Source: Mesobacillus subterraneus (GTDB lineage: Bacteria; Bacillota; Bacilli; Bacillales; Cytobacillaceae). From it: a stretch of 64,000 nt of DNA. Position numbers and translations under genes: made by a program. Positions 7,522 through 38,137 of the stretch are shown piece by piece (the stretch's first letter is position 1; each line of letters begins with the position of its first letter). The stretch covers positions 62,001-126,000 of the forward strand of contig NZ_CP129019.1 in the NCBI RefSeq assembly GCF_020524355.2, given 5' to 3'. The notes beneath the pieces are model-generated. The model saw only the letters and a list, made by a program, of their open reading frames with translations, had not been told where the DNA came from and ran no database searches.

Positions 7522-9594
7522 ATGTCTAGAATCTTGAATCTGTTATTTTCATTGATATTGATTTTTTCTCTGGCTGCGCCAGCGGTCCAGGCCGAAACGT
7601 TCATTGCGGATGAGAACTTTGACAAGGCTATAAAGGAACAGCTTGGGCTGAAACAAACTTCAGAAATCAGTCTTCAGGACATGGAAACGATTCAGTCGCT
7701 GCTGGTACCGGAAAAGAGGATTAGCAGTCTTAAAGGAATTGAACGTGCTAGTAATCTAAAAGAGCTCGATATCTCTGGTAATCAAATTAAAAGACTGGGA
7801 GATTTAGAAGGGAATACTTCGATAGAAACATTAATCGCTGATGGAGATGGTTTATCTTCTGTTGAGGATTTGAAGCCCCTTAACAATTTACAATGGCTTA
7901 GCCTGGGGGGAAACCAGATTACTGACCTAAGTGGACTATTGCAGCTTAATGGGCTTACTTCTCTATCTCTTTTTAAAAATAATATTCAGGATATTACAGC
8001 GTTAAAAGGTCTGACAGAGCTGGAATATCTTGACCTGGATGAAAATAAAGTCACTGACCTTGCGGCGCTTGCCGGTTATGAAAAGTTGACTACGCTGTTG
8101 GTTAGCGGAAACAGGATTAAGTCAATTTCTCCGCTGAAAGAGATTGCCAGTCTTGCTTACCTGTATGCGAATGATAATGAAATTTCGGACTTATCACCTT
8201 TAGCAGGGCTAAATGTAGAGGATGGAGAAATTGATCTTGCCCGGAATAATATTAAGGATCTTTCTCCAATGGCAGGCATTCAAGTGAGAGGGACATTAAG
8301 GCTGGATATAAGTGAGAATGAGGTGTCTAGTCTTGAACCATTACAAAAGCTTCATAGCATAACCAGTTTGAAGGCAAGCGGAAACTCCATTAACAGTCTT
8401 GAACCGCTGAATGGTATGACAGAATTTAAGCTGTTGGATGTAAGTTATAATCAGCTGGGGAGTTTAACCGGATTGAACTTTTCAGGCGATAAAGACTACA
8501 AGCTGGATTTTAGCCATAACAGCTTAAAAGATATAAAAGTCCTGGAATCTGTAACGATGGGGGAAATAGATTTAGAGAGCAATAATATTGTAGACATCAG
8601 TCCCTTAAGGAATCTTTCTGCAGGAACTGTAAAGTTAAAAAATAATCCGCTTAGTCCTGAATCGATTAAGTTAATCCATGAGCTGCGGAAAAAAGGGGTA
8701 GAAATTGAATTTGAACGAACAGTAACCCGGCTTGGAGGAGCTACACGCTACGATACGGCAGCGGAAATTGCCCGTAATAGCTGACCGGCAGCGGATACGG
8801 TGGTGATAACAGATGGGGAGAATTTCCCTGATGCACTTTCAGGTGCACCTCTTGCCTATGCATTGGATGCGCCGATCTTGTTATCGAAACGAGGTTCTCT
8901 TCCACGGGCAATCATGCAGGTCATTTCGGAATTGACACCTAAAAAGGCTGTGATTCTTGGAGGGACTGGTGCTGTACCGGCATCAGTAGTAGATCAACTG
9001 AAAACTCTTGGTATCCAGGAGTTTGAAAGACTTGGCGGGCAAAATAGATTTGAAACGGCCATGCTCATTGCCAATAAACTAAGATCATTGAATGGGGTGC
9101 CTGACAAGGCAGTCATTGCATATGGAAAAGACTTTCCTGATGCATTGGCCGTTGCTTCAATTGCGGCGGAAAAGGGTTATCCCATTTTGCTGAGTGAAAG
9201 GAACTCACTTCCGCTTGACACGCAGAAAGCTCTTGCAGGGGTTGCTGAAACCATTGTAGTCGGCGGTGAAGGCGTCATTAGCAAACAAGTTTTCGAAAGT
9301 CTTCCAGGTGCTACAAGATTTGGAGGAGCTGACCGATTTGCGACAGCAAATAAAATTACGGAAATGCTAGGTGACCATAAAGCATTTTACCTTGCCAATG
9401 GACGAGGTTTTGCTGATGCTCTTGCCGGTTCTGTTGCCGCTGCTAAAGATGGCGCTGAAATGCTTTTGGTAGAACAAAAGAAGATGCAAGATGGGACACG
9501 GAATATCCTGAACGCGAATGTCTCTTCGGATACAGTGATTCTTGGCGGTGAAGGGGTGGTTGGGTCAGATATATCCAATGAGTTAAGTCAATAA
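7522..9594 (+). pseudogene. Secreted leucine-rich-repeat protein with CWB2 triplet, interrupted by in-frame TGA
   Basis: The encoded protein has a signal peptide (residues 1-24, ending VQA). About a dozen internin-type 21-22-residue LRRs follow (about 70-390; motif LxxLxLxxNxIxDLxxL). Three CWB2 repeats begin at TRLGGATRYDTAAEIA, FERLGGQNRFETAMLIA and TRFGGADRFATANKIT. At 8782-8784 a TGA falls in frame where CWB2 repeats of the neighbours have Trp (SKEGW, SKKGW), so a TGG-to-TGA change explains it. The frame continues without shift to 9594 and all downstream repeat motifs are intact. As given, the product would be a 420-residue LRR protein without wall anchor. The intact protein would be a wall-bound protein-protein interaction module. 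Confidence 0.8.
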
Positions 9595-9601
9595 CAATGG
9601 A

Positions 9602-9634
9602 AAGAGTCAGCCGGTTAGGGGCTGACTCTTTTTA
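9602..9634 (+). terminator. Terminator between convergent LRR and subtilase genes
   Basis: A 12-bp stem AAAGAGTCAGCC / GGCTGACTCTTT is followed by TT. It lies between the stop codons of both convergent genes and may serve both strands. Confidence 0.85.
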
Positions 9635-9638
9635 GTAA

Positions 9639-11983: not shown

Positions 11984-12026
11984 TTTACAAAAAGTGATAT
12001 ATTATTACTATTTTTGCGTATATAAT
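11984..12026 (+). promoter_or_regulatory. Candidate sigma-A promoter(s) of the nucleotidase gene
   Basis: Two overlapping options are visible: TTTACA (11984-11989) with a 16-base spacer to TACTAT, and a perfect TATAAT at 12021-12026 with a poor -35. Either would start just upstream of the GTG gene at 12063. Confidence 0.4.
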
Positions 12027-12062
12027 AGATTTGCTGTTACATACTTGAAAGGTGGGACTAGG

Positions 12063-15000
12063 GTGAAAAAAGAGTTCAAAAAGAAATTAAATGGACTAGC
12101 TGTATCTGCTTTGACGGTTGGTTTATTGGTATCCCCGGTAGCCGGCACGCCAGTATTCGCAGAGGGCACGCCGACGAATGTCATGTCGAGCGAAGCGCTT
12201 GTAAAGATGAAAATCATGGGAACTACTGATGTGCATGGAAGCATCATGAACCATGACTATTTTACTGACACAGAAGTCACGAAAGGATTAGTGAAGGTTT
12301 CTTCTTTAGTTAAGGCTGAACGAAAAGAAAACGCTAACAACTTATTATTGGACAACGGTGACATGCTTCAGGGCAATCCGTTTACAGACTATGTGGCAAA
12401 AGTTGAACCACTGACATTTGTAGACCGCTTAGCGGGATTGGATCGCTTTGAGACTGCGATCGACATCTCTAAGGAAGGCTGGGAATCAGCTGAAACGGTT
12501 GTTCTTGTAAGATCAGATGAATTTGCTGATGCTTTGGCAGCGGCACCATTAGCTTATAAATATAACGCACCAATCCTATTAACTAAGCCAAACACTTTAC
12601 ATGAAGATACGAAGGCTGAGATCAAACGCCTTGGTGCGAAGCGTGTAGTAATTGTCGGAGGAACTGGAGCAGTTTCTTCACAGATTCAATCAACTCTTTC
12701 ATCCAAGATGAAGCTTTGGGTTAAGCGTCTTGGCGGGGAAAACCGTTTTGAGACAGCTGCTCTAGTAGCAGAAGAGCTAGGAAACAGCACTAAAGCAGTG
12801 CTTGTAAATGGCCGTGATTATCCAGATGCAATCTCCGCTGCACCATATGCAGCTAAGAATGGTCTTCCGATCCTTCTGACTGATGCAAAGAAAATTCCTG
12901 CAGAAACACAGGAAGCATTAAAGAACGTCACTGATACTGTATTGATCGGTGGTACTGGTGTGATCAGTACTGATATTGAGAAGTCTGTTAAAGGAGCAAC
13001 ACGTTTCGGCGGAGCAACACGTTTCGAAACATCTCTAAAGGTTGCTACTGAACTTGACAGCGTTAAAACAAGAGTATTCGTTTCAACTGGACGCGGATTT
13101 GCTGATGCTTTAGCAGGTTCAGTACTAGCTGCAAGAGAAGATGCTCCTGTTGTTCTTGTAGAGAGAAACTCAATGCTTAAGGAAGTTGCAGCGCTAGTAG
13201 ATGGTAAATCTGTAACAGTTCTTGGCGGAGAAGGTGTCGTTTCTGATACCCTTGTAAAGAATGAAGAGCACCCAATCTATCAAGCTATGAATGAATTGGA
13301 CTATGATGCTGCAACATTAGGAAACCATGAATTCAACTATGGTCTTGATTTCCTTGAAGGCAGCATGAGAACTGCAGAATTCCCATTTGTTTCTGCTAAT
13401 GTTTACAATGATGACCATGACAATGATCCGTCTAACGATAAGACCTTTGTAAAGCCTTATCAAATTATTGATAAGGAAGTAGTAGACGAATCAGGCAAAA
13501 AGCACACTATTAAAGTCGGCGTCATTGGCTTTGTAGCTCCGCAAATCATGCAGTGGGACAAAGCAAACCTTGAAGGCAAAGTTGTTACTGAGGATATTGT
13601 AGCTTCTGCGAAGAAGTGGGTTCCAAAAATGAAGAAGGATGGAGCTGAGATCGTTGTAACTTTATCTCACTCTGGCTTCGATGTCGACAAGGATAACAAA
13701 GAAAATTCAGTATTCGCATTAAGCGAAGTCCCTGGCATCGACGCAATCGTGTTCGGGCATACACATAAAGCATTCCCATCTGATAAGTCATACAATGGCA
13801 TTGCTGGTGTTGATAACGTAAACGGAACAATCAATGGTGTTGCGGCTGTTCAGTCCATTGTCGATGCAAGCCACCTTGGTGTCATTGACCTGGAATTGGA
13901 AAAAGTAGATGGAAAGTGGAGTGTTAAAGGATCTAAATCAGAAGTTCTTGCTGCTAAGGATGCTGAAGTAGACAAGAATATTGTTGATGTGATGAAACCT
14001 TCCCATGACGCTACAGTTGACTATATCAACCAGCCGATTGGAACAACTACTGCGCCAATTTACAGCTACTTTGCACGCGTACAGGATGACCCATCCGTAC
14101 AAATCGTTAGCAACGCGCAAAAGGAATACATTGAAAATGTACTAAAAGGTACAGAGTATGAAGATCTACCGGTTCTTTCTTCTGCAGCACCGTTCAAAGC
14201 AGGAAGAAACGGAGCGGATGAATATACGTATTTCCCGGCTGGGGAAATTGCAATCAAAAACGTTGCTGACCTGTATAAGTATCCCAATACAGTAACTGCA
14301 ATCCAGTTATCTGGTGCTCAAGTTAAGGAATATCTTGAGTGGACAGCAGTAAACTTTAATCAAATCGACCCTGCTGAAACAACTGAACAATCTTTGATTA
14401 ACAGTGATTTCCCTGTATATAACTTCGATACACTTGATGGTGTTACTTATGAAATTGATGTAACTCAGCCAGCTAAGTATGATAAAGATGGCAAAGTGGT
14501 TAACGAAGGTGCAAGCAGAATTAAAAACCTTTCTTATGAAGGTAAGCCAGTTGCAGATGATCAGCAATTTGTCATTGCTACTAACAACTATCGAGCTTCA
14601 TTCACTAAGCTTGCTAACCCTGATGGAAAGAGAGTGATCTATTCTTCACCTGATGAAAATAGACAAGTTGTCATGAACTATATCATCAAGAACAAGACGA
14701 TCAATCCATCTGCTGATCAAAACTGGAGCCTAGCACCAATCAACACAAATGTAAATGTGACATTTGAATCATCTCCAGCAGCTAAAGCATTTGCAGAAAG
14801 CTCTGACAACATCAAATATGTTGGCAATGGTGCAAATGGTTTTGCTAAGTACCAATTGGATATGATGGGCAAGCCTTTTGAAGTTCAACTACTTGGAATC
14901 AATGACTTCCATGGACAGCTTGATACTTTTAATTCTAAGTTGAATGCTGGCGGAGTTGAATATTTAGCTGCATATTTAAAGAAACACGAAGCTGAAAATC

Positions 15001-16370
15001 CAGAAAACACATTGATGCTACATGCTGGTGATGCAGTTGGTGCAAGTTCTCCTGTTTCTGCATTGCTACAGGACGAGCCTACTATTGATATTCTCAATAA
15101 GATTGGTTTTGATATAGGTACTGTGGGTAACCACGAGTTTGATGAAGGCGTGGACGAAATGCTTCGCTTGATTAACGGAGGCAGCCACCCTAAAACGGTT
15201 GAGAAATACGGTGAGTTTGAAGGTGCTGATTTCTCTTATGTAGCCGCTAACGTAGTCGATGAAAATACAAATCTGCCAATTCTTGACCCTTATGTAGTAA
15301 AAGAAGTGAACGGAGTGCCGATAGGATTCATTGGTATTGCTTACTCTGATACACCATCCATCGTAACTCCTAGCGGCACGGCTGGTGTTAAGTTCACTGA
15401 TGAAACAGAAGCAATTAATAAGTATGCAAAAGAATTGAAAGACAAAGGGATTGAAGCGATTGTGGTTATTACTCACAATCCAGCAAAATCCGACCGAGAT
15501 GGCAGCAATGCAACAGAAGAGTTAGTTGATATCGCAAAGAATATAGATGATGAAGTAGATGTATTGTTTGTCGGCCACAATCACCAGTATACAAATACAG
15601 TTGTTGATGGCAAACTTCTAGTTCAGTCTTATTCTTACGGAACAGCTTTCTCTGATGTAGATCTTATGATAGATCCTGCTACTAAAGATATCGTTTCAGC
15701 AACTGCAGAAATCGTTGATGTAAAGCGTGACGGAATTACTCCAGATGCTGAAATTAAAGAAATTCTGGACACTTATATTGCAGATGTAGCCCCAATTTTG
15801 AATGAAAAAATCGGTACTGCAACTGAATTCATCAGCAGGGAAGCAAACGTTGATGGAGAATCTGCAATGGGCAACATGGTTGCCGATGCAATGCGCTGGA
15901 AGACAGGCACTGATTTTGCCTTCATGAACTCTGGCGGAGTCCGCGCAGATATTGATGCAGGGGAGATTACTTGGAAGGAAGCTTTCACAGTTCAGCCTTT
16001 CGGGAATGACCTTGTAACAATGGATGTAACGGGTGCTCAAATCAAGACATTGCTTGAACAGCAGTGGGGAAGTAAAGTACGCATCATGCCTGTTTCTGGC
16101 TTAAAAGTTACTTACGATGATTCAAGAGCCGCTGGAGACCGCATCGTATCTATTACAAAACAAGATGGAACTCCAGTAGCAGCAGATCAAACGTACTCTA
16201 TTACTGTTAATAATTACATGGCTGATGGTGGAGATGGCTATGCAATTCTTGCAACTATTAAGGACCGTACTATCGATGTAGTTGATCTAGAAGGCTTTGT
16301 AGGTTATATCAAGGCTAACGGCACAGTAAACCCTAAGATTGAAGGCCGTGTAACAAAAATCAACAAATAG
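12063..16370 (+). CDS. Bifunctional 2',3'-cyclic-nucleotide phosphodiesterase/5'-nucleotidase with CWB2 triplet inserted in its first domain
   Basis: YfkN-type secreted enzyme, about 1436 residues. The start is GTG at 12063 with AAAGGTGG seven bases upstream; the reading frame extends further but without a ribosome-binding site. The signal peptide ends near FAEG (about 38). The first metallophosphoesterase domain begins MGTTDVHGS and LLLDNGDMLQGNP. It is then interrupted at about residues 118-398 by three CWB2 repeats (DRLAGLDRFETA, KRLGGENRFETA, TRFGGATRFETS) and resumes at EEHPIYQAMNELDYDAATLG, NHEFNYG and FGHTHKAFP. A 5'-nucleotidase C domain follows, then a second complete unit from about 940 (LLGINDFHGQ, LHAGDAVGAS, TVGNHEFDEG, FVGHNHQYT) to the end. 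No LPXTG or SLH motif is present, so the internal CWB2 block is the only visible anchor. Likely role: phosphate and nucleoside salvage from extracellular nucleotides. Confidence 0.92.
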   Translation: MKKEFKKKLNGLAVSALTVGLLVSPVAGTPVFAEGTPTNVMSSEALVKMKIMGTTDVHGSIMNHDYFTDTEVTKGLVKVSSLVKAERKENANNLLLDNGDMLQGNPFTDYVAKVEPLTFVDRLAGLDRFETAIDISKEGWESAETVVLVRSDEFADALAAAPLAYKYNAPILLTKPNTLHEDTKAEIKRLGAKRVVIVGGTGAVSSQIQSTLSSKMKLWVKRLGGENRFETAALVAEELGNSTKAVLVNGRDYPDAISAAPYAAKNGLPILLTDAKKIPAETQEALKNVTDTVLIGGTGVISTDIEKSVKGATRFGGATRFETSLKVATELDSVKTRVFVSTGRGFADALAGSVLAAREDAPVVLVERNSMLKEVAALVDGKSVTVLGGEGVVSDTLVKNEEHPIYQAMNELDYDAATLGNHEFNYGLDFLEGSMRTAEFPFVSANVYNDDHDNDPSNDKTFVKPYQIIDKEVVDESGKKHTIKVGVIGFVAPQIMQWDKANLEGKVVTEDIVASAKKWVPKMKKDGAEIVVTLSHSGFDVDKDNKENSVFALSEVPGIDAIVFGHTHKAFPSDKSYNGIAGVDNVNGTINGVAAVQSIVDASHLGVIDLELEKVDGKWSVKGSKSEVLAAKDAEVDKNIVDVMKPSHDATVDYINQPIGTTTAPIYSYFARVQDDPSVQIVSNAQKEYIENVLKGTEYEDLPVLSSAAPFKAGRNGADEYTYFPAGEIAIKNVADLYKYPNTVTAIQLSGAQVKEYLEWTAVNFNQIDPAETTEQSLINSDFPVYNFDTLDGVTYEIDVTQPAKYDKDGKVVNEGASRIKNLSYEGKPVADDQQFVIATNNYRASFTKLANPDGKRVIYSSPDENRQVVMNYIIKNKTINPSADQNWSLAPINTNVNVTFESSPAAKAFAESSDNIKYVGNGANGFAKYQLDMMGKPFEVQLLGINDFHGQLDTFNSKLNAGGVEYLAAYLKKHEAENPENTLMLHAGDAVGASSPVSALLQDEPTIDILNKIGFDIGTVGNHEFDEGVDEMLRLINGGSHPKTVEKYGEFEGADFSYVAANVVDENTNLPILDPYVVKEVNGVPIGFIGIAYSDTPSIVTPSGTAGVKFTDETEAINKYAKELKDKGIEAIVVITHNPAKSDRDGSNATEELVDIAKNIDDEVDVLFVGHNHQYTNTVVDGKLLVQSYSYGTAFSDVDLMIDPATKDIVSATAEIVDVKRDGITPDAEIKEILDTYIADVAPILNEKIGTATEFISREANVDGESAMGNMVADAMRWKTGTDFAFMNSGGVRADIDAGEITWKEAFTVQPFGNDLVTMDVTGAQIKTLLEQQWGSKVRIMPVSGLKVTYDDSRAAGDRIVSITKQDGTPVAADQTYSITVNNYMADGGDGYAILATIKDRTIDVVDLEGFVGYIKANGTVNPKIEGRVTKINK

Positions 16371-16606: not shown

Positions 16607-19600
16607 TTGAAATTGAGAAAGCCACTTACGTATCTATTGGCTGGTTCGTTGTTGTTCTCTAATGTGAACTTCGCATTAGCAGAAACTCTAAATAACTCAA
16701 AACCATCAAAGCCTGTAATTACAAAACAATGGGATGGCAGAAAAGCATTTGATAAGTCAAAGCAAAAAACAACTGCCAACTTCAAAGTCTCTGACAAGGT
16801 TCGCGTGATTGTAGAAGTTGAGGGAGAAACCCCGATCGAATACGCAACTAAAAATAAAAAGCTATATAAAGAGCTTCCTGAAACTAAAAAGAACGAATTG
16901 GCTGCTAAAGTTGAAAAGCAGCAGAACAATGTGAAGAAAGCACTATCGACAAAAGGCGTTAAAATCAAGTACAAGGGCAAGTTTTCTACAGTCTTCAATG
17001 GTTTTAGCGGAGAGGTTACATACGGTGATATCTCTAAGATTGAAAGCACTGCTGGAGTCAAGAATGTATACTTGAGCAATGAGTATAATCGTCCTGAAGT
17101 ACAGCCGAACATGAAAACAAGTCATCAGTTCATTCAGTCTTACCAAACTTGGGGAGATGCGCAATTCAAAGGGGAAGACCAGGTTGTAGCTGTCATTGAT
17201 ACTGGCGTGGATCCATCCCATAAAGACTTTGTTCTAAGCGAAGGCGTCGAAGGTGACCTGGAGGAGAGCGAAGTTAACACACTAGTTGAAGAAGCAGCCC
17301 TTAAAGGTAAATATTTTACTGAAAAGGTTCCTTATGGCTTCAACTACTATGATATGAATGACACAATCCTTGATTTAGGACCTGGTGCTTCCATGCACGG
17401 AATGCACGTTGCCGGTACAGTAGCAGCAAACGGTGACGTCGAAAATGGCGGTATCCAGGGCGTTGCACCTGAAGCGCAAGTATTGGCGATGAAGGTTTTC
17501 TCTAATGACCCACTTTACCCGTCAACTTGGTCAGATGTTTATTTGGCAGCTATTGATGATGCGATTACATTGGGGGCAGATGTCCTGAACATGAGTTTGG
17601 GAAGTACAGCTTCTTTCTACGAGCCTGAAAGTGTTGAAGACTTAGCGATTACTAGAGCGGTAGATAATGGCGTATTAGCTGCTGTTTCTGCTGGTAACTC
17701 TGGTCACATTGGTTACGGCTGGGATAATCCTAATTTTGAAAACCCTGATATCGGAGTTGTAGGTGCTCCAGGTTTGAATCCTGATTCACTCCAGGTAGCA
17801 GCTTCAGGAAATGAAGGTTTCCTATACGAAACGAAAGTAACCGTTGATGGTTCTGGTTTCAGTGCAGTAGGCTTTGGTCGTGACAGCTGGGATGGCTTAG
17901 CTGACAAGGAGATCGTCAGCCTTGAAGGTAAACTTGGCAAGCCTGAAGACTATACAGGTCTAGATGTGACGGGAAAGGTTGTTTTAGTACAACGTGGCGC
18001 TTTATCATTCTATGATAAAACTCAAAATGCTGCTGCGGCTGGTGCTGTTGGTATTATCGTTTATGACAGCAATGCAGGAGCATACTTTTATAAGGACCAG
18101 GGCGGTTGGGATGTTCCATTCACGATGATTTCTCATGCGGATGGAAATGCTCTTCGTAAGGTTGTCGAAGAACAGAACCTCAAAACTCTAGGAGTCGAGC
18201 AGTTGAATAAAAATGAAGACCCGGAAATGGGCAGAATGACTGACTTCACTTCATGGGGAACTACTCCAAGTCTCGAAATGAAGCCTGAAATTACTGCTCC
18301 CTGGCGGAAACATTTATTCAACCTTCCAAAATAACTCATACGGTCTTATGAGTGGTACTTCCATGGCCGCGCCGCATGTTGCCGGTGGATCTGCTCTAGT
18401 TCAGCAATACTTAAAGACTGATGACCGTTTTGAAGCATTAGAAGCTTCTGAGTATACTAGACTGGCAAAAATCTTGTTGATGAACTCAGCAAAAGTGATT
18501 GAAGATCTAAATGGCCAGCCTTTCTCGCCTAGAAGACAAGGTGCTGGTATGATGCAAACATTCGCAGCAGTTGATACTCCTGTATTTGTTGTTAACAAGA
18601 ATACTGGAGAAGCAAAAGTGGAATTGAAGGATTTCAAGGATAAGTCTCAAAGCTTCACACTTACTGCTACGAACATTTCCGATAAGGAAGTTACTTATGA
18701 TGTAAATACTCGCCTTCTGACTGATACGTATCAGGAAGTAAAAGATGCTCCAGATCAAAATGCTTTGACTGCTGGAGATATTCAAGGAGCTAAAGTTGTT
18801 GCTCCTAAAACAGTCACCATCCCAGCAGGGGAGTCAGTTGACTTTACTGTATCTTTTGACCTGACAGGTGCGAAGATTCCTGGACTGGATAAAGACGGTA
18901 AGGCAACTAGCAAGGCATTGGTTGAAGATATTTTCGTTGAAGGTTTCGTTCAATTCACAGATGCAAACGGTGCTGAAGCAAAACTTAATGTTCCTTTCCT
19001 AGGTTTCTACGGCGAATGGGATCGCCCGGATGTTGTGGATGGAATGAAAGACCTTGGTGAAAACAAGTACTTTGATTATTCGCAATATGATTTCACGGAT
19101 GTCCTTGTTGATAAGGATGAGTTTTTCACTTCACCAGTTCCTGGAAAAGACTTCTATGCCCTTTCACCAAACGGTGACGGATTCCTTGATGATATGAATC
19201 CATTGCTCGGGTTCTTGCGAAATGCAAAAGAAGTCCAATACAACATTCTTAACAAAGATGAAAAGTTGTTAAAAAGGATTTTAATGGAAAAGAATGTACG
19301 CAAGAGTTTTATTGATGGCGGAACAGAAGATGGATTCAAGTACAACCCAGACTCTCTATGGGATGGATCTGTAAAGTCCAAAACTGTTGCAGACGGACTT
19401 TACTATTACGAAGTTAAATCCGTTGTTGATTATACTGGAGCAGATTGGCAGTCTAAGAAAATTCCTGTATATGTTGATACAACAGCTCCTGCAGTTACAG
19501 TTACTTTCGATGAGAAGACTGGTGAGCTTAAGTGGGAGGGCAGCGATGAGGGTGTCGGAATCGCAGGTTATGCAGTCGTGGTAAACGGTAAAGTAGTCAA

Positions 19601-21179: not shown

Positions 21180-21194
21180 TAGCAAGCAAAAGAG

Positions 21195-21228
21195 AGAACC
21201 GTTGAATCTTTTCAACGGTTCTTTTTTT
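21195..21228 (+). terminator. Terminator after the Vpr-like gene
   Basis: A 12-bp stem AGAACCGTTGAA / TTCAACGGTTCT with a 4-base loop and a T6 tail separates the CWB2 block from the polysaccharide operon. Confidence 0.92.
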
Positions 21229-29123: not shown

Positions 29124-30237
29124 ATGAAAGTGCCTATGTTAGATCTTAGTGAACAATATCAGGAATTAAGAACAGAAGTATTGGAAGTTTTGGACCAGGT
29201 AATGGGATCTTCGCGTTTTATCCTTGGAGATAATGTGAAGAAGTTGGAAGAAGATGTGGCGAAATACAGCAATGTTTCATACGGTATCGGGTGCGGCAAT
29301 GGCAGCGATGCTATACATATTGCCCTGCAGGCCATGGGTATTGGCCCTGGGGATGAAGTTATCACTACAGCCTTCACTTTTTTTTGCAACGGGCGGTGCA
29401 ATTGTCCGTGCTGGCGCAAAGCCGGTCTACGTCGATATCGATCCGTTAACCTTCAATATTGATCCTGAAAAGATTGAAGCTGCGATTACAGAGAACACAA
29501 AAGCGATCATTCCTGTCCACCTTTATGGACAAATGGCTGATATGGAAAGAATCGCTGAAATTGCCAAGAAGCATGATCTAGGTGTAGTAGAAGATGCTGC
29601 ACAGGCCATCGGTGCAAAGCACAATGGCAAGTCTGTAGGAGAGTTGGGATCTGCGGCTACTTACAGCTTCTTCCCAACGAAAAACCTGGGTGCATACGGT
29701 GACGGCGGAATGCTTGTAACAGATGATGCTGACATTGCCGAAAAGTCCCGTGTCATCAGGGTTCATGGCAGCAAGCCTAAGTACTATCATCATGTACTTG
29801 GTTACAATAGCCGCCTGGATGAATTGCAAGCAGCTGTGCTTAATGTTAAATTCCCTCATCTTGACAGATGGAGTGACTTAAGAAGAGAAAAGGCAAGCAC
29901 TTATACCTCACTATTAAAAGAAAAACTGGGTGATTTAGTCGTAACACCTGTTGAAAAAGAAGGCAATCATCACGTTTTCCACCAGTATACACTTCGTGTT
30001 GAAAACCGGGATGAACTGCAGAGCTATCTGAAGGAACAGGGAGTAGCAACAATGGTGTATTATCCGCTTCCTCTCCATGTTCAGCCGGTATTTGCCGATC
30101 TTGGATATAAGGAAGGCGACCTGCCTGAAACTGAAAAGGCCGCTAGAGAAGCTATTTCTCTTCCAATGTTCCCTGAACTGAAAACGGAACAGCAAGAATA
30201 TGTTGTGGCGAAAATTGCCGAATTCTATGGTAAATAA
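29124..30237 (+). pseudogene. wbpE: DegT/DnrJ/EryC1 aminotransferase (WbpE-like), frameshifted near 29389
   Basis: PLP-dependent sugar aminotransferase, about 370 residues when joined. WbpE aminates the 3-keto group of UDP-GlcNAcA-derived sugar. The first part has MLDLSEQYQELR and GNGSDAIHIALQAMGIGPGD; the second has VEDAAQAIGAKHNG, the PLP lysine in SFFPTKNLGAYGDGG, and GYNSRLDELQAAVL. A run of eight T (29388-29395) should have seven; this restores FTFFATGGAIVRAGAKPVYV. GGAGGA precedes the ATG. It is the first gene of the operon with wbpB, wbpA, wbpD and wbpI, which is the main reason for the specific assignment. Confidence 0.85.
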
Positions 30238-30317: not shown

Positions 30318-31331
30318 TTGATCAATTTTGCAATTGTAGGCATGGGGCATATTGCAAAAAAACATGTTGAAGCGATTGAACAGGCAGCGGAAGCCAACTT
30401 GTATGCGATCTGCGACACAGATCCAGTGAGGATGCAGGATGCTGGCGATGAGGTAAAGAAATATACTGACCTTGGTCAAATGCTGGAAGAGAATCCGGAA
30501 ATTCATGTTGTAAATATATGTGTACCTTCCGGGCTTCATGCAAAGCTGACAAAAATCGTTGCTGAGCATAAACGTCATATCATTGTCGAAAAGCCGATGG
30601 CTCTCAAATTGGAAGATGCACAAAGCATGCTTAAGGATGCTGAGATAAATGGCGTCAAGCTTGCAATTGTCCATCCAAATCGGTTCCGCCCGGCGGTTCA
30701 GGCTATGAAGGCAAAAATGGATGCGGGCTCATTCGGTACATTAAGCCATGCGAATGCCACTGTCCGCTGGAATCGGAACCAGGATTACTATGATCAGGCA
30801 GCATGGCGAGGTACGAAAGAGTTTGACGGCGGGGTATTGATGAACCAGGCAATCCATGACTTAGACCTTTTGCTTTGGCTGATAGGACCTGTTGAATCTG
30901 TTCAGGCTATGACCGCCACTCGACTCCGGAAAATTGAGACAGAGGATGTCGCTGCTGCGGTTGTTCAATTCAAGAGTGGAGCTATAGGGTTGATTGAAGC
31001 CGCAACAACGGTTTTTCCAAAGAACCTGGAAGAATCGTTAGCGATTTTTGGGGAGACTGGTTCTGCCAAAATTAGCGGCAGCACAGCAAATTTCATTGAA
31101 ACATGGGATTTTGAAGATACTACAGAAGAAGATTCTAAAGCAATTGCAGAGAAGGTAAAGGAAGATCCTTTTGAAAAACCGGGACATCAATGTATTATTG
31201 AAGATATGATTGAAGCAATCAATGAAGATAGAGCGCCTATTGTTAACGGGGAAGATGGTCTTGCACCTGTGAAGCTCATCCTCGCTATTCTGGAATCAGC
31301 AGAAACAGGAAAAAAAGTAGTATTACAATAA
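30318..31331 (+). CDS. wbpB: Gfo/Idh/MocA-family UDP-sugar 3-dehydrogenase (WbpB-like)
   Basis: 337-residue NAD-dependent oxidoreductase. WbpB oxidises C3 of UDP-GlcNAcA to the 3-keto form that WbpE aminates. The Rossmann motif is at the N-terminus (FAIVGMGHIAKKHVEAI), followed by the family motif IIVEKPMALKLEDA (about 90-103) and the catalytic-domain segment FDGGVLMNQAIHDLDLLLWL with the conserved Asp/His. The start is TTG at 30318, nine bases after AGGAGG; no ATG fits. The reading frame is intact. The specific substrate follows from the operon, since the family alone is broad. Confidence 0.87.
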   Translation: MINFAIVGMGHIAKKHVEAIEQAAEANLYAICDTDPVRMQDAGDEVKKYTDLGQMLEENPEIHVVNICVPSGLHAKLTKIVAEHKRHIIVEKPMALKLEDAQSMLKDAEINGVKLAIVHPNRFRPAVQAMKAKMDAGSFGTLSHANATVRWNRNQDYYDQAAWRGTKEFDGGVLMNQAIHDLDLLLWLIGPVESVQAMTATRLRKIETEDVAAAVVQFKSGAIGLIEAATTVFPKNLEESLAIFGETGSAKISGSTANFIETWDFEDTTEEDSKAIAEKVKEDPFEKPGHQCIIEDMIEAINEDRAPIVNGEDGLAPVKLILAILESAETGKKVVLQ

Positions 31332-31344
31332 AGGAGAACTTAAA

Positions 31345-32660
31345 ATGAGCCATTATGAAACTCTTACGAAAAAAATTGAGAATAAAGAAGCAGTTATCGG
31401 TGTAGTAGGATTAGGGTATGTTGGACTTCCGCTTGCTGTTGAGAAAGCAAAAGCAGGTTATAAGGTAATTGGATTCGATGTTCAGGCTTCACGTGTGGAA
31501 CAAGTTAACATGGGTATTAACTATATAGGAGATGTTGTCGATCAGGACCTGGCAGACATGATTAAGGAAGGAATGCTAGAGGCAACAACTGACTATGCAA
31601 GGATCCAGGATGTTGATGCGGTCGCAATCTGTGTACCTACTCCGTTGGACATCTACCAGCAGCCAGATACTTCCTACGTTGAAAGCTCGTCAAAAGAAAT
31701 TGCAAAGTATGCTCATGAAGGAATGCTTGTAGTGCTTGAGTCAACTACTTATCCAGGCACAACGGAAGAAATCGTTAAGCCAGCATTAGAAGAGAAAGGC
31801 ACCTTGTTACTGGTGAAACTGTATTTATTGCCTACTCACCTGAACGCGTTGACCCAGGTAACAAGCAATTCAAGACGAAGAATACACCAAAGGTTGTCGG
31901 CGGAATCACAGAGAACTGTACAAAGGTAGCGTCTGCACTTTACCGTAATGTACTTGAAGGTGATGTGTTCGAAGTTTCCAGCCCTGCGATTGCTGAAATG
32001 GAAAAGATTTTTGAAAACACATTCCGTCACATTAATATCGCTCTTGCTAACGAAATGGCCATTCTATGCGAAAAAATGGGCATTGATGTTTGGGAAGTGA
32101 TTGACGCAGCTAAAACAAAGCCATACGGCTTCATGGCGTTCTATCCGGGCCCTGGACTAGGCGGTCACTGTATTCCAATCGATCCATTCTATCTGACTTG
32201 GAAGGCACGTGAATATAATTACCACACTCGTTTGATCGAGCTTGCCGGTGAAATCAACAACAGCATGCCAGAATACGTCATCACACGTTCAATGCAAGTT
32301 TTGAATGAGGATGGAAAGGCATTGCGCGGTTCCAAAGTAGTAATTCTAGGTGTAGCTTATAAGAAGGATATTGATGATGTCCGCGAATCCCCAGTTCTTA
32401 AAATTGTAGAGCTTTTAAATGACCATGGTGCTGACTACAAAGTTGTCGACCCGTATGTGTCTTCATTTAAATCTTGCGGTGCGAAAGTAGAAACTGTTGA
32501 AATGACACAAGAATTGCTTAGAGAAGCAGACCTTGTCCTGGTAACTACAGACCATACTGATTTTGATTATGAAATGATCGCTAAGGAAAGCAAAGTTATT
32601 TTTGATACTCGAAATGCTCTTAAAGACATTGAAAAGCCTAACAAATACATCAAACTATAA
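31345..32660 (+). pseudogene. wbpA: UDP-N-acetylglucosamine 6-dehydrogenase (WbpA-like), frameshifted near 31798
   Basis: NAD-dependent nucleotide-sugar dehydrogenase, about 438 residues when joined, oxidising UDP-GlcNAc to UDP-GlcNAcA. The N-terminus has VIGVVGLGYVGLPLAVEKA, the substrate region ESTTYPGTTEE, and the catalytic Cys in GPGLGGHCIPIDPFYL; the UDP-binding C-terminal domain has VILGVAYKKDIDDVRESP. Around 31798-31801 GGCAC lacks one C of the expected GGCCAC. Restoring it gives GHLVTGETVFIAYSPERVDPG and an unbroken protein. AAAGGAGA precedes the ATG, 13 bases after wbpB. It supplies the first step of the pathway although it is third in the operon. Confidence 0.88.
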
Positions 32661-32684: not shown

Positions 32685-33416
32685 ATGAATTTTATCGACC
32701 CATCAGCGAAACTGGATGAAACCGTAAAAGTTGGATATTTTTCAGTTGTAGAAAAGGATGTAAAGCTTGGAAAGGATGTTGTCATTGGCAACCGTGTGAC
32801 AATCCATGAAGGCACAGTAATTGGCGATGGAACTACTATCGCAGATGGAGCGGTTGTCGGGAAACCGCCAAAACCTGCTAAAACCAGTACTGTTAAGTTG
32901 GCAGATTCAATTCCTGCACTTGAGCTTGGCGAAGGAGTAACTGTTGGTGCCAATGCTGTCATTTACCGCGGTGCAAAAATTGGATCGGACACCCTGATTG
33001 CTGACCTGGCAAGTGTAAGGGAAAATGTCGAGATTGGTAATTACGTCATTGTCGGACGCGGCGTCACTGTAGAAAATTACGTAAAAATCGGCGACCGTAC
33101 AAAAATTCAGTCCAATTCCTATATTACAGCGTATACAACACTGGAAGAGCAGGTTTTCATCGCTCCTTGCGTGACAACTACGAATGACAACTTGATGGGA
33201 AGAACAGAAGAGCGATTCGATAAAATTAAAGGCGCTACAGTCAAGAAAGGCGCTCGTGTGGGCGGAGCGTCGATTCTATTGCCTGGAATAGTTGTGGAAG
33301 AAGAAACCTTCATTGCTGCTGGCGCACTTGTCACGAAAAATACAGAGCCAAAAACTCTGATTAAAGGTGTTCCGGCAAAATTCGTTCGCATGGTTGACGA
33401 ACGTGAACTGTTATAA
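32685..33416 (+). CDS. wbpD: Left-handed beta-helix N-acetyltransferase (WbpD-like)
   Basis: 243-residue hexapeptide-repeat acyltransferase (LbH fold): repeated I/V-G-xx triplets such as VKLGKDVVIGNRVTIHEGTV and AKIGSDTLIADLASVRENVE, and a C-terminal GVPAKFVR typical of sugar acetyltransferases. WbpD acetylates the 3-amino group of UDP-GlcNAc3NA to give UDP-GlcNAc(3NAc)A. It follows wbpA by 24 bases and has AGGGAGAG before the ATG. The specific substrate is inferred from neighbours. Confidence 0.87.
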   Translation: MNFIDPSAKLDETVKVGYFSVVEKDVKLGKDVVIGNRVTIHEGTVIGDGTTIADGAVVGKPPKPAKTSTVKLADSIPALELGEGVTVGANAVIYRGAKIGSDTLIADLASVRENVEIGNYVIVGRGVTVENYVKIGDRTKIQSNSYITAYTTLEEQVFIAPCVTTTNDNLMGRTEERFDKIKGATVKKGARVGGASILLPGIVVEEETFIAAGALVTKNTEPKTLIKGVPAKFVRMVDERELL

Positions 33417-33431
33417 ATCTTTTAAGCGTTT

Positions 33432-33449: not shown

Positions 33450-33525
33450 TTACGTATTTTAACGAAGGTTTAACCTGCGATTGGGAAACCTTAAAGATAA
33501 GATTACTTATAAAGGAAGGTTCAAA

Positions 33526-34593
33526 ATGAAGATTTTAACTGTGCTTGGGGCAAGGACTCAATTCATTAAAGCAGCTCCTGTTTCACGTGTTTTGCGAGAA
33601 TCTCACGAGGAATTGATCATCCATACTGGACAGCATTATGACAGCAATATGTCTGATATCTTTTTCGAAGAGCTGAACATACCAAAGCCTGATTATTTAC
33701 TTGGCGTAGGTTCCGGCAATCATGGAAAGCAAACAGGGGAAATGATGGCGAAGATCGAGGAAATCGTCCTCAAAGAAAGCCCTGATTATCTCATGGTTTA
33801 TGGAGATACAAATTCAACTCTTGCAGGCTCTCTTGTGGCGGCGAAGCTTCATGTTCCTGTCATCCACATCGAAGCTGGATTGAGAAGCTTCAATAAGAAA
33901 ATGCCTGAAGAAATCAACAGGATTATGACAGACCATGTATCAGAATACTTATTCAGCCCTACCGAGACTGGAGTAGTAAACCTCAAGAATGAAAACATCA
34001 CCAGAAATGTTTATAATATTGGCGATGTTATGTATGATGCCGTTCTTTATAACCAGGAGCTGGCTGAAGAAAAATCAACTGTCCTTCAGGATAATGATCT
34101 TGATCAGAAGGGCTACCACCTAATCACCATCCACCGAGCGGAGAATACGGATGATGTAGAAATAATGAAAAATATCCTTGATGCCTTCTCTCAAATCGAA
34201 GAAACAAAGGTCTGGCCAATCCATCCGCGTACGAAGCATAAGCTTGCTGATTATGGTATTAATATCGATTCGGTACCTGGCTTAAAGGTAATTGATCCAG
34301 TAGGTTATCTGGACATGCTGACACTTGTTTCCAACGCAAAGAAAATCGTTACGGATTCTGGCGGTGTACAAAAAGAAGCTTACTTCATGAAGGTCCCGTG
34401 TGTAACAGTGAGGGAACAGACTGAGTGGGTAGAGACGCTTGAATCTGAAGCAAATATCCTGGTTGGCACAGAAACTGCCAAGATAGTAGAGGCGGTTAAG
34501 AAGAATGTTTCTCCAGAGTACAAGGATGTTTTTGGAGATGGGAAAGCTGCAAATAAAATCGTAGAAATTCTAGCAACATCTGAACAGAACTAA
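33526..34593 (+). CDS. wbpI: Non-hydrolysing UDP-sugar 2-epimerase (WbpI-like)
   Basis: 355-residue GT-B-fold epimerase. WbpI converts UDP-GlcNAc(3NAc)A to UDP-ManNAc(3NAc)A; the close relative WecB/MnaA acts on UDP-GlcNAc. The N-terminal motif here is LGARTQFIKAAPVSR, closer to the GARPQFIKA of WbpI than to GTRPEAIK of MnaA. Other conserved parts: HTGQHYD, VYGDTNSTLAG, HIEAGLRSFN, MPEEINR, TIHRAENTDD, TDSGGVQKEAYF. I place the start at ATG 33526 with AAAGGAAGG six bases upstream; the 15 codons before it have no ribosome-binding site. It completes the set of five enzymes. Confidence 0.88.
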   Translation: MKILTVLGARTQFIKAAPVSRVLRESHEELIIHTGQHYDSNMSDIFFEELNIPKPDYLLGVGSGNHGKQTGEMMAKIEEIVLKESPDYLMVYGDTNSTLAGSLVAAKLHVPVIHIEAGLRSFNKKMPEEINRIMTDHVSEYLFSPTETGVVNLKNENITRNVYNIGDVMYDAVLYNQELAEEKSTVLQDNDLDQKGYHLITIHRAENTDDVEIMKNILDAFSQIEETKVWPIHPRTKHKLADYGINIDSVPGLKVIDPVGYLDMLTLVSNAKKIVTDSGGVQKEAYFMKVPCVTVREQTEWVETLESEANILVGTETAKIVEAVKKNVSPEYKDVFGDGKAANKIVEILATSEQN

Positions 34594-34623
34594 GACCACT
34601 AAATGTCAGTGGGGAGATTAAAG

Positions 34624-35733
34624 ATGAAAACAGTACTCGTTTATTACCCCTTTGCTCTGGCCAAAGAAGCAAACAGCGGTTCCAAGCTGAGACCGCTTGA
34701 GATGAAAAAGGCATTCGAGGCATGGGGAGAACAGAATGAAGTTAATGTGATATTAATATCTGGAACTACGAAGGAACGTCGCCAGCAATTCCGGCAACAT
34801 CTTTCATCCGGTGCGTTTGATGATCTCTGGTTTTGCTATATGGAAAACCAGACGATTCCTCTGTGGCTGACAGATCCAGGCCATAAACCGAAGCATCCAT
34901 TTATCGACCGTCAGATTCTTGCGTTCTTAAAGTCAAAGAATGTACCTGTTGGAGTCTTTTACAGGGATGTCTATTGGAAGTTCGACCATATCTACCCGCT
35001 TAAGGGCTACAAGAAGACGATAATGCAATCGATTTATAAAATTGAAGAGAAATTTTATGAAAAATATTGTGATGTGATTTTCCTTCCAAGCCTGGAAATG
35101 GGAAAGTATGTTGACATTGAAAGGCCAATGGCTGATCTGCCTCCCGGCGGGAAGAAAGTGGACATTTTAGATAAAGAACCTCATGGTGAGCCCTTCCATG
35201 CAATATATGTAGGTGCCATAAAAGGAGAAGACTACGGTTTCGATTTACTAATGGGAGCTTTTGAAATCATTAACAAAGAAAAGCAAAGATGTGACTTGAC
35301 TATTGTCTGCAGGCAGCCGGAATTTGAATCATTGACAGACCAGCAAAAAGAGCAGCTTACAAAATTAGGCATCGAAGTGCAGCATATTAGCGGCGAGAAG
35401 CTTGATGAGTTATATAGAGAAGTTGATTTTGCCTTAATTCCGAGAAAGTGTACTGAATACCAGAACTTCTCAATGCCTGTGAAGCTTGTTGAGTATTTAT
35501 CCAATAATCTTCCGATCGTCGCAACCGCTTGTGATGCCCAGAAGCGTTTCTTGAGTGAAAATGGATATGGCATCATCTGTGAAGACGAGGAAAAATCAAT
35601 GGCAAGAGCAATTGAAGAAATGATGGGCAGCCTTGAACAATACCAGAATAATATCCAGGAAACCTTCATGAAAAATCATTCCTGGCTGGCAAGAGTTGAG
35701 AAAGTGAAAAATTCTCTTGTTGGGAGTGAGTAA
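34624..35733 (+). CDS. Glycosyltransferase, GT4/GT-B like
   Basis: 369-residue cytoplasmic protein. The N-terminal domain starts VLVYYPFALAKEANSGSKLRPLEM. The C-terminal part is GT-B-like: AIYVGAIKGEDYGFDLLMGA, the EKLDELYREVDFALIPRK stretch and SMPVKLVEYLSNNLPIVATA, matching the nucleotide-sugar pocket although the usual EX7E motif is diverged. The start at ATG 34624 follows GGGGAG by seven bases; a longer frame from 34603 is possible. It lies 30 bases after the epimerase and stops just before the next glycosyltransferase. Confidence 0.78.
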   Translation: MKTVLVYYPFALAKEANSGSKLRPLEMKKAFEAWGEQNEVNVILISGTTKERRQQFRQHLSSGAFDDLWFCYMENQTIPLWLTDPGHKPKHPFIDRQILAFLKSKNVPVGVFYRDVYWKFDHIYPLKGYKKTIMQSIYKIEEKFYEKYCDVIFLPSLEMGKYVDIERPMADLPPGGKKVDILDKEPHGEPFHAIYVGAIKGEDYGFDLLMGAFEIINKEKQRCDLTIVCRQPEFESLTDQQKEQLTKLGIEVQHISGEKLDELYREVDFALIPRKCTEYQNFSMPVKLVEYLSNNLPIVATACDAQKRFLSENGYGIICEDEEKSMARAIEEMMGSLEQYQNNIQETFMKNHSWLARVEKVKNSLVGSE

Positions 35734-35734
35734 C

Positions 35735-36801
35735 ATGAAAGTTGTCCTATTTTCACCTGGAAAGTCCTCTCGCACACACATAAGTGGGCCATGTACTTCA
35801 AAGAGCACGGTCTTGATGTTACCGTTGTCACATTTAAGGACCATTATTCTGCAGAGAACGCCAGAGAAGTTAAAACTTTGGTACTGCCGAAAACCTTGCC
35901 TGGCAAGCTTTCGTACTTGCCAGCTGTTTTGGCATTAAGAAAGATACTGGCAGAATTGAAACCGGATATCCTTCATGCCCATTTTGTTTCGAGCTACGGC
36001 TTTGTTGGTGCCCTCGCTAACTATCAACCTTTCTTTGTATCAGTATGGGGTACGGATATCTACAAGTTTCCTAAAAAGAGCAGCCTGAACCGAAGGATTG
36101 TAGAATTCTCCCTGGGAAGGGCTGAGATCATTTGCTCCACCAGTAAGACGATGGCTAAGGAAACAGCTAAGTATACTAATAAGAAGATTGAAGTAACGCC
36201 TTTTGGTGTTAACCTATCCCTATTCTCACCTAAGGAAGATGTCAACAAAGGTAAATTGGTGGTTGGGATTGCAAAAGGGCTGGATGACATCTATGGTTTC
36301 CGGGATCTTTTTAAGGCTTTTGCCATCTTAAAGCCTAAGTTCGAAAGTCTTGAACTCCATATACTTGGAGATGGGTCAATGCGCGAAGAGTATGAGCAGT
36401 TAACCCATGAATTGGAAATCGATGAAAAAGTTAAGTTCATCGGCCGGGTTCCTAATACGATGGTTCCCCAATATATGAAAGAGATGGATATCGTGGCAAT
36501 GCCATCATACGAAGATAGCTTTGGGGTTACCGCAGTTGAGGCAATGGCCTGCGGCATTCCTGTCGTGGTTTCAGATGTTGATGGTCTGAAAGAAGTTGTC
36601 CTGGAAAATGAGACAGGCTTTATTGTGCCTCGTGGTAATCCAGAAGAGCTGGCTCAAGCCCTTGATAAGCTTCTAAAGGATGAAGAACTTCGAGTGAAAA
36701 TGGGAAAGCGGGGCATAGAGCATGTCCGTCAAAACTATGACTGGAATGATAATGCTGACTATATGGTTAAACTATATAAGAATAAAATTGCTCAAGAGTG
36801 A
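35735..36801 (+). pseudogene. Glycosyltransferase family 4, frameshifted near 35762
   Basis: GT4 enzyme of about 356 residues when joined. The first 9-11 codons (MKVVLFSPGK) are in one frame and the rest in another. One base seems lost in GGAAAGTCCTC (35759-35769); adding one gives a continuous SPGKVLSHTHKWAMYFKEHG. The body has ILHAHFVSSYGFVGALA, VSVWGTDIYKFPKKS, VTPFGVNLSLFSP, HILGDGSMREEYEQL, FIGRVP and the donor-binding EDSFGVTAVEAMACGIPVVV with both glutamates. The ATG is one base after the previous stop codon, so translation is probably coupled. Donor sugar unknown. Confidence 0.82.
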
Positions 36802-36894
36802 ACCAATAGGAAATAAGCCAGTTGTCAATGAGAGTGTAATTTAGTTTGAATTATTTTTTATTTATCTAGAAATTTACTTAATGGAGTTGGGAAA

Positions 36895-38137
36895 ATGAGA
36901 ATTATCTATTTATGCCAGCATTTTCCCCCTGAAACGGGTGCACCACAAATTAGGGTGTATGAGGTCAGTAAGGAATTAATTGAACGGGGGCACCAGGTGG
37001 AGGTTTTGACTGCCTTTCCTCACCATCCTAAGGGTGTCATTCCGGATGAGTATAAGGGAATGTTTTATTTATACGAAAATTGGGACGGGATTCCTGTCCA
37101 TCGATCATGGATCTATCCGTCACCAAAGGGCAGCTTCTGGAAGAGGCTTGCATCCTATTTTTCGTTCACATTCAGTGCCTTTTACTCTCTGGCTAAAGCT
37201 AAGCCAACCGATGTCATCATCTGTAATTCCCCGCCTTTATTTTTAGGGATTTCCGGGTACATTGGAGCCAAGCTTAAGCGGGCAAAGTTCGTTTTCAATG
37301 TTGCGGATATTTGGCCTGAGTCGGCGGTGGAACTCGGGATTCTAAAAAATAAACCCTTTATTCGCATGGCTGAATGGCTAGAGAATTTCCTGTATAAAAA
37401 GTCATGGAAGATAGCGACTGCAACTGATGGAATCAGGGATTATATGATCCGCAAAGGGAAAAAGCCTGAAGATGTGTTCTTGCTTCCTAATGGAGTGAAC
37501 ACAAATACCTTCAGTCCAATGAAGCCTGATCATGATCTGATTAAAGAGTTGAAACTAACAGGCAAGAAGGTGTTTATGTACGGGGGGAACACTTGGCTAT
37601 GCTCAGGGATTGGATTCAGTCCTTGAGGCTGCAGCTCTTGTGAAGGAAGATACTCCGGACGCACATTTTCTGTTTGTTGGTGATGGACAGGAATGGGAAA
37701 AGCTTGTATCCATGAAAGAAGAACTTCAATTGGATAATGTGACTTTCTATGGGTCTGTTCCTGTCTCAGAAATGCCAAGGATGTTTTCTGTTGCTGATTA
37801 CAGCATTGTCTCTTTACGTAATATCGCACTCTTTAAGGGGGCGAGGCCATCGAAAATTTTCCCTGCCATCTCAACTGGTACACCGGTCTTGTACTGTGGA
37901 GAAGGGGAGAGTGCCTCTATTCTTGAGGAATACAATTGTGGTAAAATTGCTCCACCTGAAAATCCAGAAGATATTGCTGCTGCCGTAAGAGAGTTGGTGG
38001 CGGTTTCGGAAGTTGATTACAAAATCATGTCCCAAAACGGACGGAAATTGGCTGTTGACCAATATTCCTGGAAAAGTATCGTGGACGATTTAGTATCTCA
38101 TTTAAATAAAGGTGAAATGAAAAAAGCATCGACATAA
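36895..38137 (+). pseudogene. WbuB-like glycosyltransferase family 4, frameshifted near 37586
   Basis: GT4 enzyme of about 414 residues when joined, of the WbuB type used for amino-sugar transfer in surface polysaccharides. Visible: IIYLCQHFPPETGAPQIRVY, VEVLTAFPHHPKGVIPDEYK, NVADIWPESAVELGIL, LLPNGVNTNTF, FVGDGQEWEKLVSMKEE. A G6 run at about 37583-37588 should be G5; this restores VFMYGGTLGYAQGLDSVLEAA. A 93-base gap separates it from the previous gene. Its last codons form part of the terminator stem at 38121-38156. Confidence 0.82.

Follow-up and report, generated by a model that had tools for sequence, protein, structure and literature searches.

A CWB2 anchoring cassette linked to a predicted uronate-type wall-polymer locus in the degS-tagO neighbourhood of Mesobacillus subterraneus and its relatives

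In Clostridioides difficile, according to the sections of the literature drawn on here, the Cwp/SlpA proteins carry three tandem CWB2 repeats and are encoded beside a locus for an anionic polymer, PSII, with attachment by proteins of the LCP (LytR-CpsA-Psr) family (PMC4973711, PMC10100865). The CWB2 domain was first identified in CwlB of Bacillus subtilis (PMC5817068), and a published table for that organism gives the order tagV, tuaG to tuaA, lytC, lytB, lytA, tagU and mnaA, with tagO-tuaH named as an adjacent pair within the cassette (PMC8753576). Here we describe a comparable arrangement in a stretch of 64,000 nucleotides from Mesobacillus subterraneus (the window, i.e. the whole of the DNA analysed), in which four exported proteins with triple CWB2 repeats are encoded directly before a predicted locus for an acidic, uronate-containing wall polymer. 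An earlier note on this DNA had implied that such an arrangement is new; given that, in the parts of the two sources used here, LCP, TagO, uronic-acid polymer genes and CWB2 autolysins already stand side by side in the B. subtilis tagV-tagO-tuaA-H-lytC-lytB-lytA-tagU region, with lytC/lytB adjoining tua and LCP genes, a CWB2-polymer linkage has a precedent at this place and the novelty is less than was claimed (PMC8753576, PMC5817068).

The window locus would represent this lineage's counterpart of the B. subtilis tagV-tagO-tua-lyt region, carrying a CWB2-type cassette. We consider it probable that it couples a wall-polymer locus to an anchoring cassette whose proteins grip the local uronate-type polymer, and that the two are linked and exchangeable as a unit. 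In such a mechanism TagO, Wzx, Wzy and Wzz would assemble, on a lipid carrier, an acidic polymer containing uronate, here predicted to be 2,3-diacetamido-mannuronate; LCP proteins would attach it to peptidoglycan; and the nucleotidase, the subtilases and the leucine-rich repeat (LRR) protein would hold it non-covalently via a CWB2 trimer. The cassette and the polymer genes would be exchanged together, and in sister species be replaced by choline-binding or SLH systems. The anatomy is that of the C. difficile system, i.e. triple CWB2 repeats in exported proteins (all four in the window, nine proteins in the genome) with an anionic polymer locus and LCP genes adjoining, and from it the binding itself is predicted; the window locus differs in possessing a TagO-type gene and uronate genes.

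Profile searches recovered three PF04122 (CWB2) repeats in each of the four window proteins (E 2e-50 to 8e-66), bearing out the earlier claim of an LRR protein, two subtilases and a nucleotidase with such triplets before the polymer locus; their export signals were assigned by eye. The LRR protein (7522..9594, plus strand) has one in-frame stop, a TGA, inside its first repeat. The first subtilase (PF00082; 9639..11807, minus strand) is a single open frame with its repeats at the C-terminus; its closest homologs in the search also carry CWB2. The YfkN-like double nucleotidase (11994..16370, plus strand) has its CWB2 triplet nested within the first metallophosphoesterase domain, at about residues 145-420, while the second, PA/Fn3-type subtilase (16607..21179, plus strand) again bears three C-terminal repeats and has a broken frame. 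The whole genome holds 27 CWB2 matches in nine proteins, all inside about 110 kb around the contig origin: the four in the window, four at C1:2018-9975 and one at C1:4759296-4760693. The second four-protein cassette directly precedes an apparent separate exopolysaccharide locus (C1:11913-32964), which was recognised by eye from its open reading frames (ORFs) and includes a UDP-sugar dehydrogenase confirmed by TIGR03026 and an epimerase-like ORF.

Family matches place Wzz, Wzx, Wzy and tagO directly after the window's CWB2 genes, as had been described. On the plus strand these comprise a Wzz-type chain-length protein (21139..22077; PF02706), whose start is probably internal to the ORF, a Wzx/MOP flippase with a broken frame (22106..23432), a family 4 glycosyltransferase (23429..24580), a Wzy/O-antigen-ligase type polymerase (24592..25830) and a TagO/WecA-type initiating sugar-phosphate transferase (27843..28919). 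The glycosyltransferase has TuaC as its top NCBIfam match and the polymerase has TuaE as its sole one, both under cut-off, which is a further likeness to the B. subtilis tua genes. The sugar set is instead WbpABEDI-like, and its five enzymes are encoded in one cluster on the plus strand: a WbpE-like aminotransferase with a broken frame (29124..30237; the WbpE chains 3nu7, 3nyu and 3nys are among its best eight matches in the PDB), a WbpB/WlbA-like sugar 3-dehydrogenase (30318..31331; best PDB matches 3q2k and 3q2i, titled only oxidoreductase/dehydrogenase, which we take to be WlbA), a WbpA-like UDP-sugar 6-dehydrogenase broken into two ORFs (31345..32660; TIGR03026 on both pieces), a WbpD/WlbB-like hexapeptide N-acetyltransferase (32685..33416; 3fs8 QdtC and 3mqg, a lipopolysaccharide acetyltransferase) and a WbpI-like UDP-2,3-diacetamido-2,3-dideoxy-glucuronate 2-epimerase (33481..34593; 8syd). 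The dehydrogenase pieces score 42 and 92 bits with TuaD, below the NCBIfam models for UDP-ManNAc dehydrogenases (96-157 bits), and neither of them is a TuaD-type UDP-glucose dehydrogenase by this comparison. The "complete set" for a diacetamido-mannuronic sugar reported earlier holds for gene content but not for reading frames, those of the aminotransferase and the UDP-sugar dehydrogenase being broken.

There is good reason to predict UDP-2,3-diacetamido-2,3-dideoxy-mannuronate as the product, chiefly from the epimerase, which matches UDP-2,3-diacetamido-2,3-dideoxy-glucuronic acid 2-epimerases in the PDB at 418 bits; the best differently named chains reach 346 bits (4neq, named UDP-GlcNAc 2-epimerase), 181 (CapG, 7ya2) and 175 (4hwg). 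The other four enzymes fit the same UDP-ManNAc3NAcA pathway, less specifically, and the structure of the polymer is predicted from this gene content. The secondary cell-wall polymer of Geobacillus stearothermophilus reportedly, from a 1999 study, holds diacetamido-mannuronate, the same kind of acidic sugar as is predicted here, and to our knowledge the polymer-binding part of the S-layer protein SbsC is not a CWB2 module. Geobacillus contigs encode epimerases 74-75% identical to that of the window. The anchoring differs from that in the window, since SbsC binds its polymer by an N-terminal part, residues 31-258, in the portion of the report drawn on here (PMC1262761).

LCP genes (PF03816) lie on both sides of the locus, as had been noted, both on the minus strand: a candidate polymer-to-peptidoglycan ligase at 4059..5018 (E 4e-53) and a protein at the tagV place at 43565..44602 (E 8e-47). 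The right flank, which the earlier note did not mention, encodes on the minus strand a LytB-like SpoIID-domain protein with a broken frame (38159..39689; PF08486), an exported SH3-domain protein (39691..40422; PF08239), an Amidase_3 autolysin (40541..43384), the second LCP protein and a YvyE/UPF0029 protein (44667..45302), followed on the plus strand by the landmark DegS and DegU (45696..47603). This SpoIID/SH3/amidase/LCP/YvyE/DegSU order identifies the locus as the counterpart of B. subtilis tagV-tagO-tua-lytCB, with DegSU-YvyE-LCP flanks and TagO inside. In B. subtilis, CwlB is, we assume, LytC, LytB presumably has CWB2 as well, and degS/U and YvyE presumably adjoin tagV. The window differs in carrying CWB2 on a nucleotidase, two subtilases and an LRR protein. 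The LytC-type amidase has eight SH3_3 matches and no CWB2 match, and the 404-aa piece of the LytB-like protein likewise has no CWB2 match, so the wall-binding module of the autolysins also seems exchangeable. The host had been called a Bacillus; it does not belong to Bacillus sensu stricto, the nearest named relative of its epimerase being that of Mesobacillus subterraneus (91%).

Linkage was surveyed in 121 genomes of the family, with WbpI-like defined by E <= 1e-100. CWB2 occurs in 31 genomes and WbpI in 30, with both in 14, CWB2 only in 17, WbpI only in 16 and neither in 74, a moderate co-occurrence when phylogeny is not controlled (odds ratio 3.8, Fisher P = 0.004). The joint occurrence of CWB2 and wbpABEDI-type genes that the earlier note had anticipated is thus present and mostly adjoining, but only moderate. 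The 10-kb flanks of 80 named wbpI loci held CWB2 in 10 cases; because the window's own nearest CWB2 repeat is 12 kb from wbpI, such flanks are too short, and whole-genome positions were used instead. Positions of CWB2, choline and SLH repeats were taken from the matches listed, which are incomplete for repeat-rich genomes, and distances use one or more repeats per protein. Among the matches listed, the shortest distance between a CWB2 repeat and wbpI is 8 to 16 kb in 13 of the 14 genomes having both (the exception is G038), and 24 of the 31 CWB2 genomes have a CWB2 gene no more than 20 kb away from a UDP-sugar dehydrogenase, with 1.8 expected by random placing. As a control in the same genomes, 1 of 51 LPXTG genes is that close to such a dehydrogenase.

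The neighbouring dehydrogenases fall into several classes (ten assigned by NCBIfam, 28 compared by BLAST): WbpA-like ones, at least 73% identical to the window pieces, occur in 16 genomes including the window's own, TuaD-like ones in G028, G096, G006, G034 and G089, and WecC-like ones in G120, G002 and G003. As CWB2 stands beside all three classes, the rule is a uronate-type dehydrogenase as neighbour and not one sugar; this and the moderate WbpI co-occurrence give no support to a diacetamido-mannuronic sugar as the general CWB2 ligand. DegS was found in 114 of the 121 genomes. Of the 30 CWB2 genomes with degS, 24 have a dehydrogenase within 25 kb of that gene, versus 12 of 45 CWB2-negative ones (P = 6e-6), seven of these 12 being WbpI-positive; within the window's own genus the counts are 6 of 8 versus 0 of 8 (P = 0.007). 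The negative set comprises 45 of 90 genomes, namely all eight of the own genus and then degS-bearing ones in handle order to G055; for the CWB2 genomes 42 of the listed dehydrogenase places entered the test, most of them on a degS contig or close to CWB2.

Two other non-covalent anchors resemble this system while belonging to different anchor families with different ligand enzymes: each comes with a polymer-decorating enzyme and, in sister species, frequently shares a contig with degS. Choline-binding repeats (PF19127) occur in 30 of the 121 genomes and at least 25 SLH repeats in 16; this limit for SLH-rich genomes, that of at least 18 repeats for choline-rich ones and that of E <= 1e-36 for CsaB below were set after the counts had been seen. 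At least one of the CWB2, choline and SLH-rich systems is held by 73 genomes, and the overlaps are few: CWB2 with choline in two, CWB2 with SLH-rich in none and choline with SLH-rich in two. Shuffling of the labels within genera gives an expectation of 10.7 against these four (P = 0.0002). For the choline/SLH pair alone exclusion is not significant (P = 0.18). The 16 genomes of the own genus divide without overlap into eight with CWB2, three with choline repeats, four SLH-rich and one with none; others also have singleton SLH matches.

Among the matches listed, degS has an anchor gene within 65 kb in 26 of the 31 CWB2 genomes, in 11 of the 12 choline-rich ones and in 10 of the 16 that are SLH-rich. 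In the remainder, two CWB2 genomes have the anchor 184 and 260 kb off, degS was not found in one, and the others have no anchor on the degS contig among those matches. LicD is present in 11 of the 12 choline-rich genomes versus 7 of the 109 others, and in 11 of 17 placed genomes it is no farther than 27 kb from degS; most of its matches are weak (about 30 residues, E 1e-4 to 1e-8). Strong CsaB-family matches occur in 14 of 16 SLH-rich genomes versus 10 of 105 others (15 of 16 versus 52 of 105 at the looser E <= 1e-20); in those 14, CsaB is 11-48 kb from degS in seven, 270-330 kb off in three and on another contig in four. A search of titles and the starts of abstracts recovered no account of CWB2, SLH and choline systems replacing one another, which does not imply absence from print.

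Evidence for exchange as a unit comes from G028 and G096, both of the TuaD class. The ten 1-kb windows before degS are 71-81% identical between them, apart from one at 88%. Over the next 38 kb or so, which start at degS and take in the TuaD-type polymer locus and CWB2 genes, identity per kb is 90-99%, apart from two windows at 88%; this stretch looks co-transferred. In the nucleotidase gene the identity drops to 71% and climbs to 97% over the CWB2 insert, where the compared stretch ends; the insert as a whole is 99% identical and the remainder 87%. TagO is 95% (G000-G068) and 98% (G028-G096) identical within a polymer class and 55-56% across classes, with the degS-side proteins at 81-86% among these four genomes. 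Three window CWB2 proteins compared with G068, of the same class, are 94.7, 88.8 and 94.2% identical over CWB2 and 75.5, 76.5 and 85.1% over the remainder. Against G028/G096, of the other class, the two with close counterparts show about 81% over CWB2 and 78-87% over the remainder, and the third has only a distant match. For the nucleotidase and the large subtilase, the same-class pair G000-G068 gives 94-95% over CWB2 and 76-85% elsewhere, and all four cross-class genome pairs give 81% over CWB2 and 78-89% elsewhere. In these two proteins, then, the CWB2 module appears to behave like the polymer genes and not like its own enzyme.

In the window nucleotidase the CWB2 triplet stands between the DNGDxLQG and GNHEFNYG motifs of the first metallophosphoesterase domain, and among the genomes examined this nested arrangement, with a motif gap of about 323 residues, recurs in ten genomes of three genera. 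A predicted structure folds both the catalytic and the CWB2 parts (mean pLDDT 81); the best PDB matches of the model are cyclic-nucleotide phosphodiesterase/nucleotidases including B. subtilis YfkN, with no CWB2 structure among the best 50. In the same genus, the homolog in G108 (55% over 1186 columns) has choline repeats and no nested insert (motif gap 43), and a shorter one in G115 (49% over 670) has SLH; other relatives have LPXTG, C-terminal CWB2 or mid-linker SLH. The idea that CWB2, SLH and choline repeats occupy one common insertion site proved wrong: among the proteins checked, nesting is confined to the CWB2 of this group, and the other anchors are C-terminal or in the middle linker. 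A homolog of metagenomic source, P0002, is 99% identical to P0001 over the CWB2 insert and only 86% elsewhere, the module again being better conserved than the enzyme. The literature search on CWB2 with nucleotidases, which does not imply absence from print, returned nothing beyond a report that, in the part seen, gives B. subtilis YfkN LPDTA sortase motifs (PMC12445088).

Taken with the exclusion pattern, these observations incline us, with somewhat less assurance than for the coupling at the window itself, to regard the degS-tagO neighbourhood as an exchange site. It would hold mainly one anchor with its ligand enzyme at a time, the pairs being CWB2 with a UDP-uronate dehydrogenase, choline repeats with LicD and SLH with CsaB (73 of the 121 genomes); anchor and polymer genes would move together, and exoenzymes would switch module to match. 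Several results weigh against the coupling. Proximity of CWB2 and polymer genes is explicable by old synteny alone. The WbpI co-occurrence is loose (17 of 31 CWB2 genomes are without WbpI and 16 of 30 WbpI genomes without CWB2), and among the matches listed seven CWB2 genomes lack a dehydrogenase at 20 kb or less: in four there is none on the CWB2 contig, and G023, G038 and G053 have one farther away. CWB2 proteins far from wbpI likewise have the module better conserved than the remainder between G000 and G068 (88.5 versus 78.9% and 91.3 versus 79.5%). Same-genus comparisons give a mean excess of CWB2 identity over the remainder of +3.6 for pairs sharing a class (n = 38) and +4.2 for pairs of different classes (n = 77). 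No extra CWB2 conservation is seen when pairs of one class are compared across genera, and G110 (WbpA-type) and G120 (WecC-type) share the insert at 87% with the remainder at 72%. A tree of CWB2 triplets does not follow dehydrogenase class significantly (P = 0.19 free, 0.053 within genus), class and genus being confounded across all genera. A linear fit restricted to the 382 of 624 ortholog pairs whose remainder is at least 40% identical gives +3.3 points for the same class (genome-label permutation P = 0.002), which is only suggestive. Given these mixed results, matching of module and polymer class is indicated for one genus and two proteins and not in general.

The alternative that survives best, though we hold it to be unlikely, is that CWB2 binds a feature common to several wall polymers, such as the TagO-dependent linkage unit or negative charge, the particular uronic acid being irrelevant. 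It would account for CWB2 genes adjoining TuaD-, WecC- and WbpA-like dehydrogenases and for the module shared across classes by G110 and G120, and the PSII of C. difficile is chemically different again from these uronate polymers. Yet the difference in the nested module is about 19% between classes and 1-6% within class (four genomes, one genus), and a BLAST search of C. difficile 630 did not find TagO, as stated in the part of the report used here (PMC4973711). Rather more doubtful is linkage alone, with the CWB2 genes lying in an old degS-tagO surface island and binding something general like peptidoglycan or ordinary teichoic acid. The old lyt/tag/tua synteny, the weak tree signal and the want of a plain excess of CWB2 conservation within class agree with it, and a single cassette swap can bring unrelated neighbours; however, there is no such clustering of LPXTG genes, overlaps between the three anchor systems are fewer than expected, and two proteins have a CWB2 part that tracks the polymer class and a remainder that does not. 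That the locus makes a free exopolysaccharide or capsule, the CWB2 link being incidental, is improbable. Its Wzx/Wzy/Wzz architecture and the second by-eye polysaccharide locus beside CWB2 genes would suit this, but teichuronic acid is likewise made by a Wzx/Wzy-type route, and the locus includes a TagO-type gene and is flanked left and right by LCP genes. Position and exchange therefore support a coupling of CWB2 proteins to the local uronate-type wall polymer, the specific sugar not being the rule. Of the C. difficile logic with a uronic polymer as ligand that the earlier note had put forward, the linkage (13 of 14 near wbpI, 24 of 31 near a dehydrogenase) and the stretch shared by G028 and G096 speak for it in part, with binding as the predicted step.

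A further point on the negative side is that polymer genes are frame-broken in this very genome. Frame changes affect the aminotransferase, the UDP-sugar dehydrogenase, Wzx, one glycosyltransferase, the SpoIID protein, one subtilase and a sulfatase/lipoteichoic-acid-synthase-like remnant (26483..27251, minus strand; PF00884 on 26817-27251, no family on 26483-26800), which spans 37% of a 620-aa ORF at the same place in G068. When 38 ORFs of G068 were compared by script, six frame-changed genes appeared, all at 16.6-39.7 kb, where 16 ORFs were compared, and none in the 22 ORFs outside; the seventh, a glycosyltransferase in two ORFs of different frames (36895..38137, plus strand), comes from the ORF table. 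The clustering gives P = 0.0009 with seven genes and 0.003 with six, for an interval chosen after the data were seen. The aminotransferase and the UDP-sugar dehydrogenase are single ORFs in G068. The locus may be decaying in this isolate, or the assembly may be poor over this stretch; with its genes broken, the polymer may have been lost or be unmade in this isolate. The remaining genes include two glycosyltransferases on the plus strand (34603..35733, PF13692; 35791..36801, PF00534) and, before the cassette, an exported C39-type peptidase with Ig-like domains and no CWB2 (5820..7481, plus strand; PF13529, PF17936). A long ORF with acidic Glu/Gln repeats lies at 727-2307 (C1:62727 onward).

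CWB2 proteins are widespread, and in the literature found, as far as the portions used here extend, their ligand is worked out only for C. difficile. The genomes compared here amount to a natural experiment, in that close species differ in polymer class and sister species have SLH or choline binding in place of this system; the specificity of CWB2 for its ligand thereby becomes directly testable. They also suggest how exported proteins may follow a change of wall polymer: if the present interpretation is true, co-exchange of modules and polymer genes would account for the fit between surface proteins and wall.

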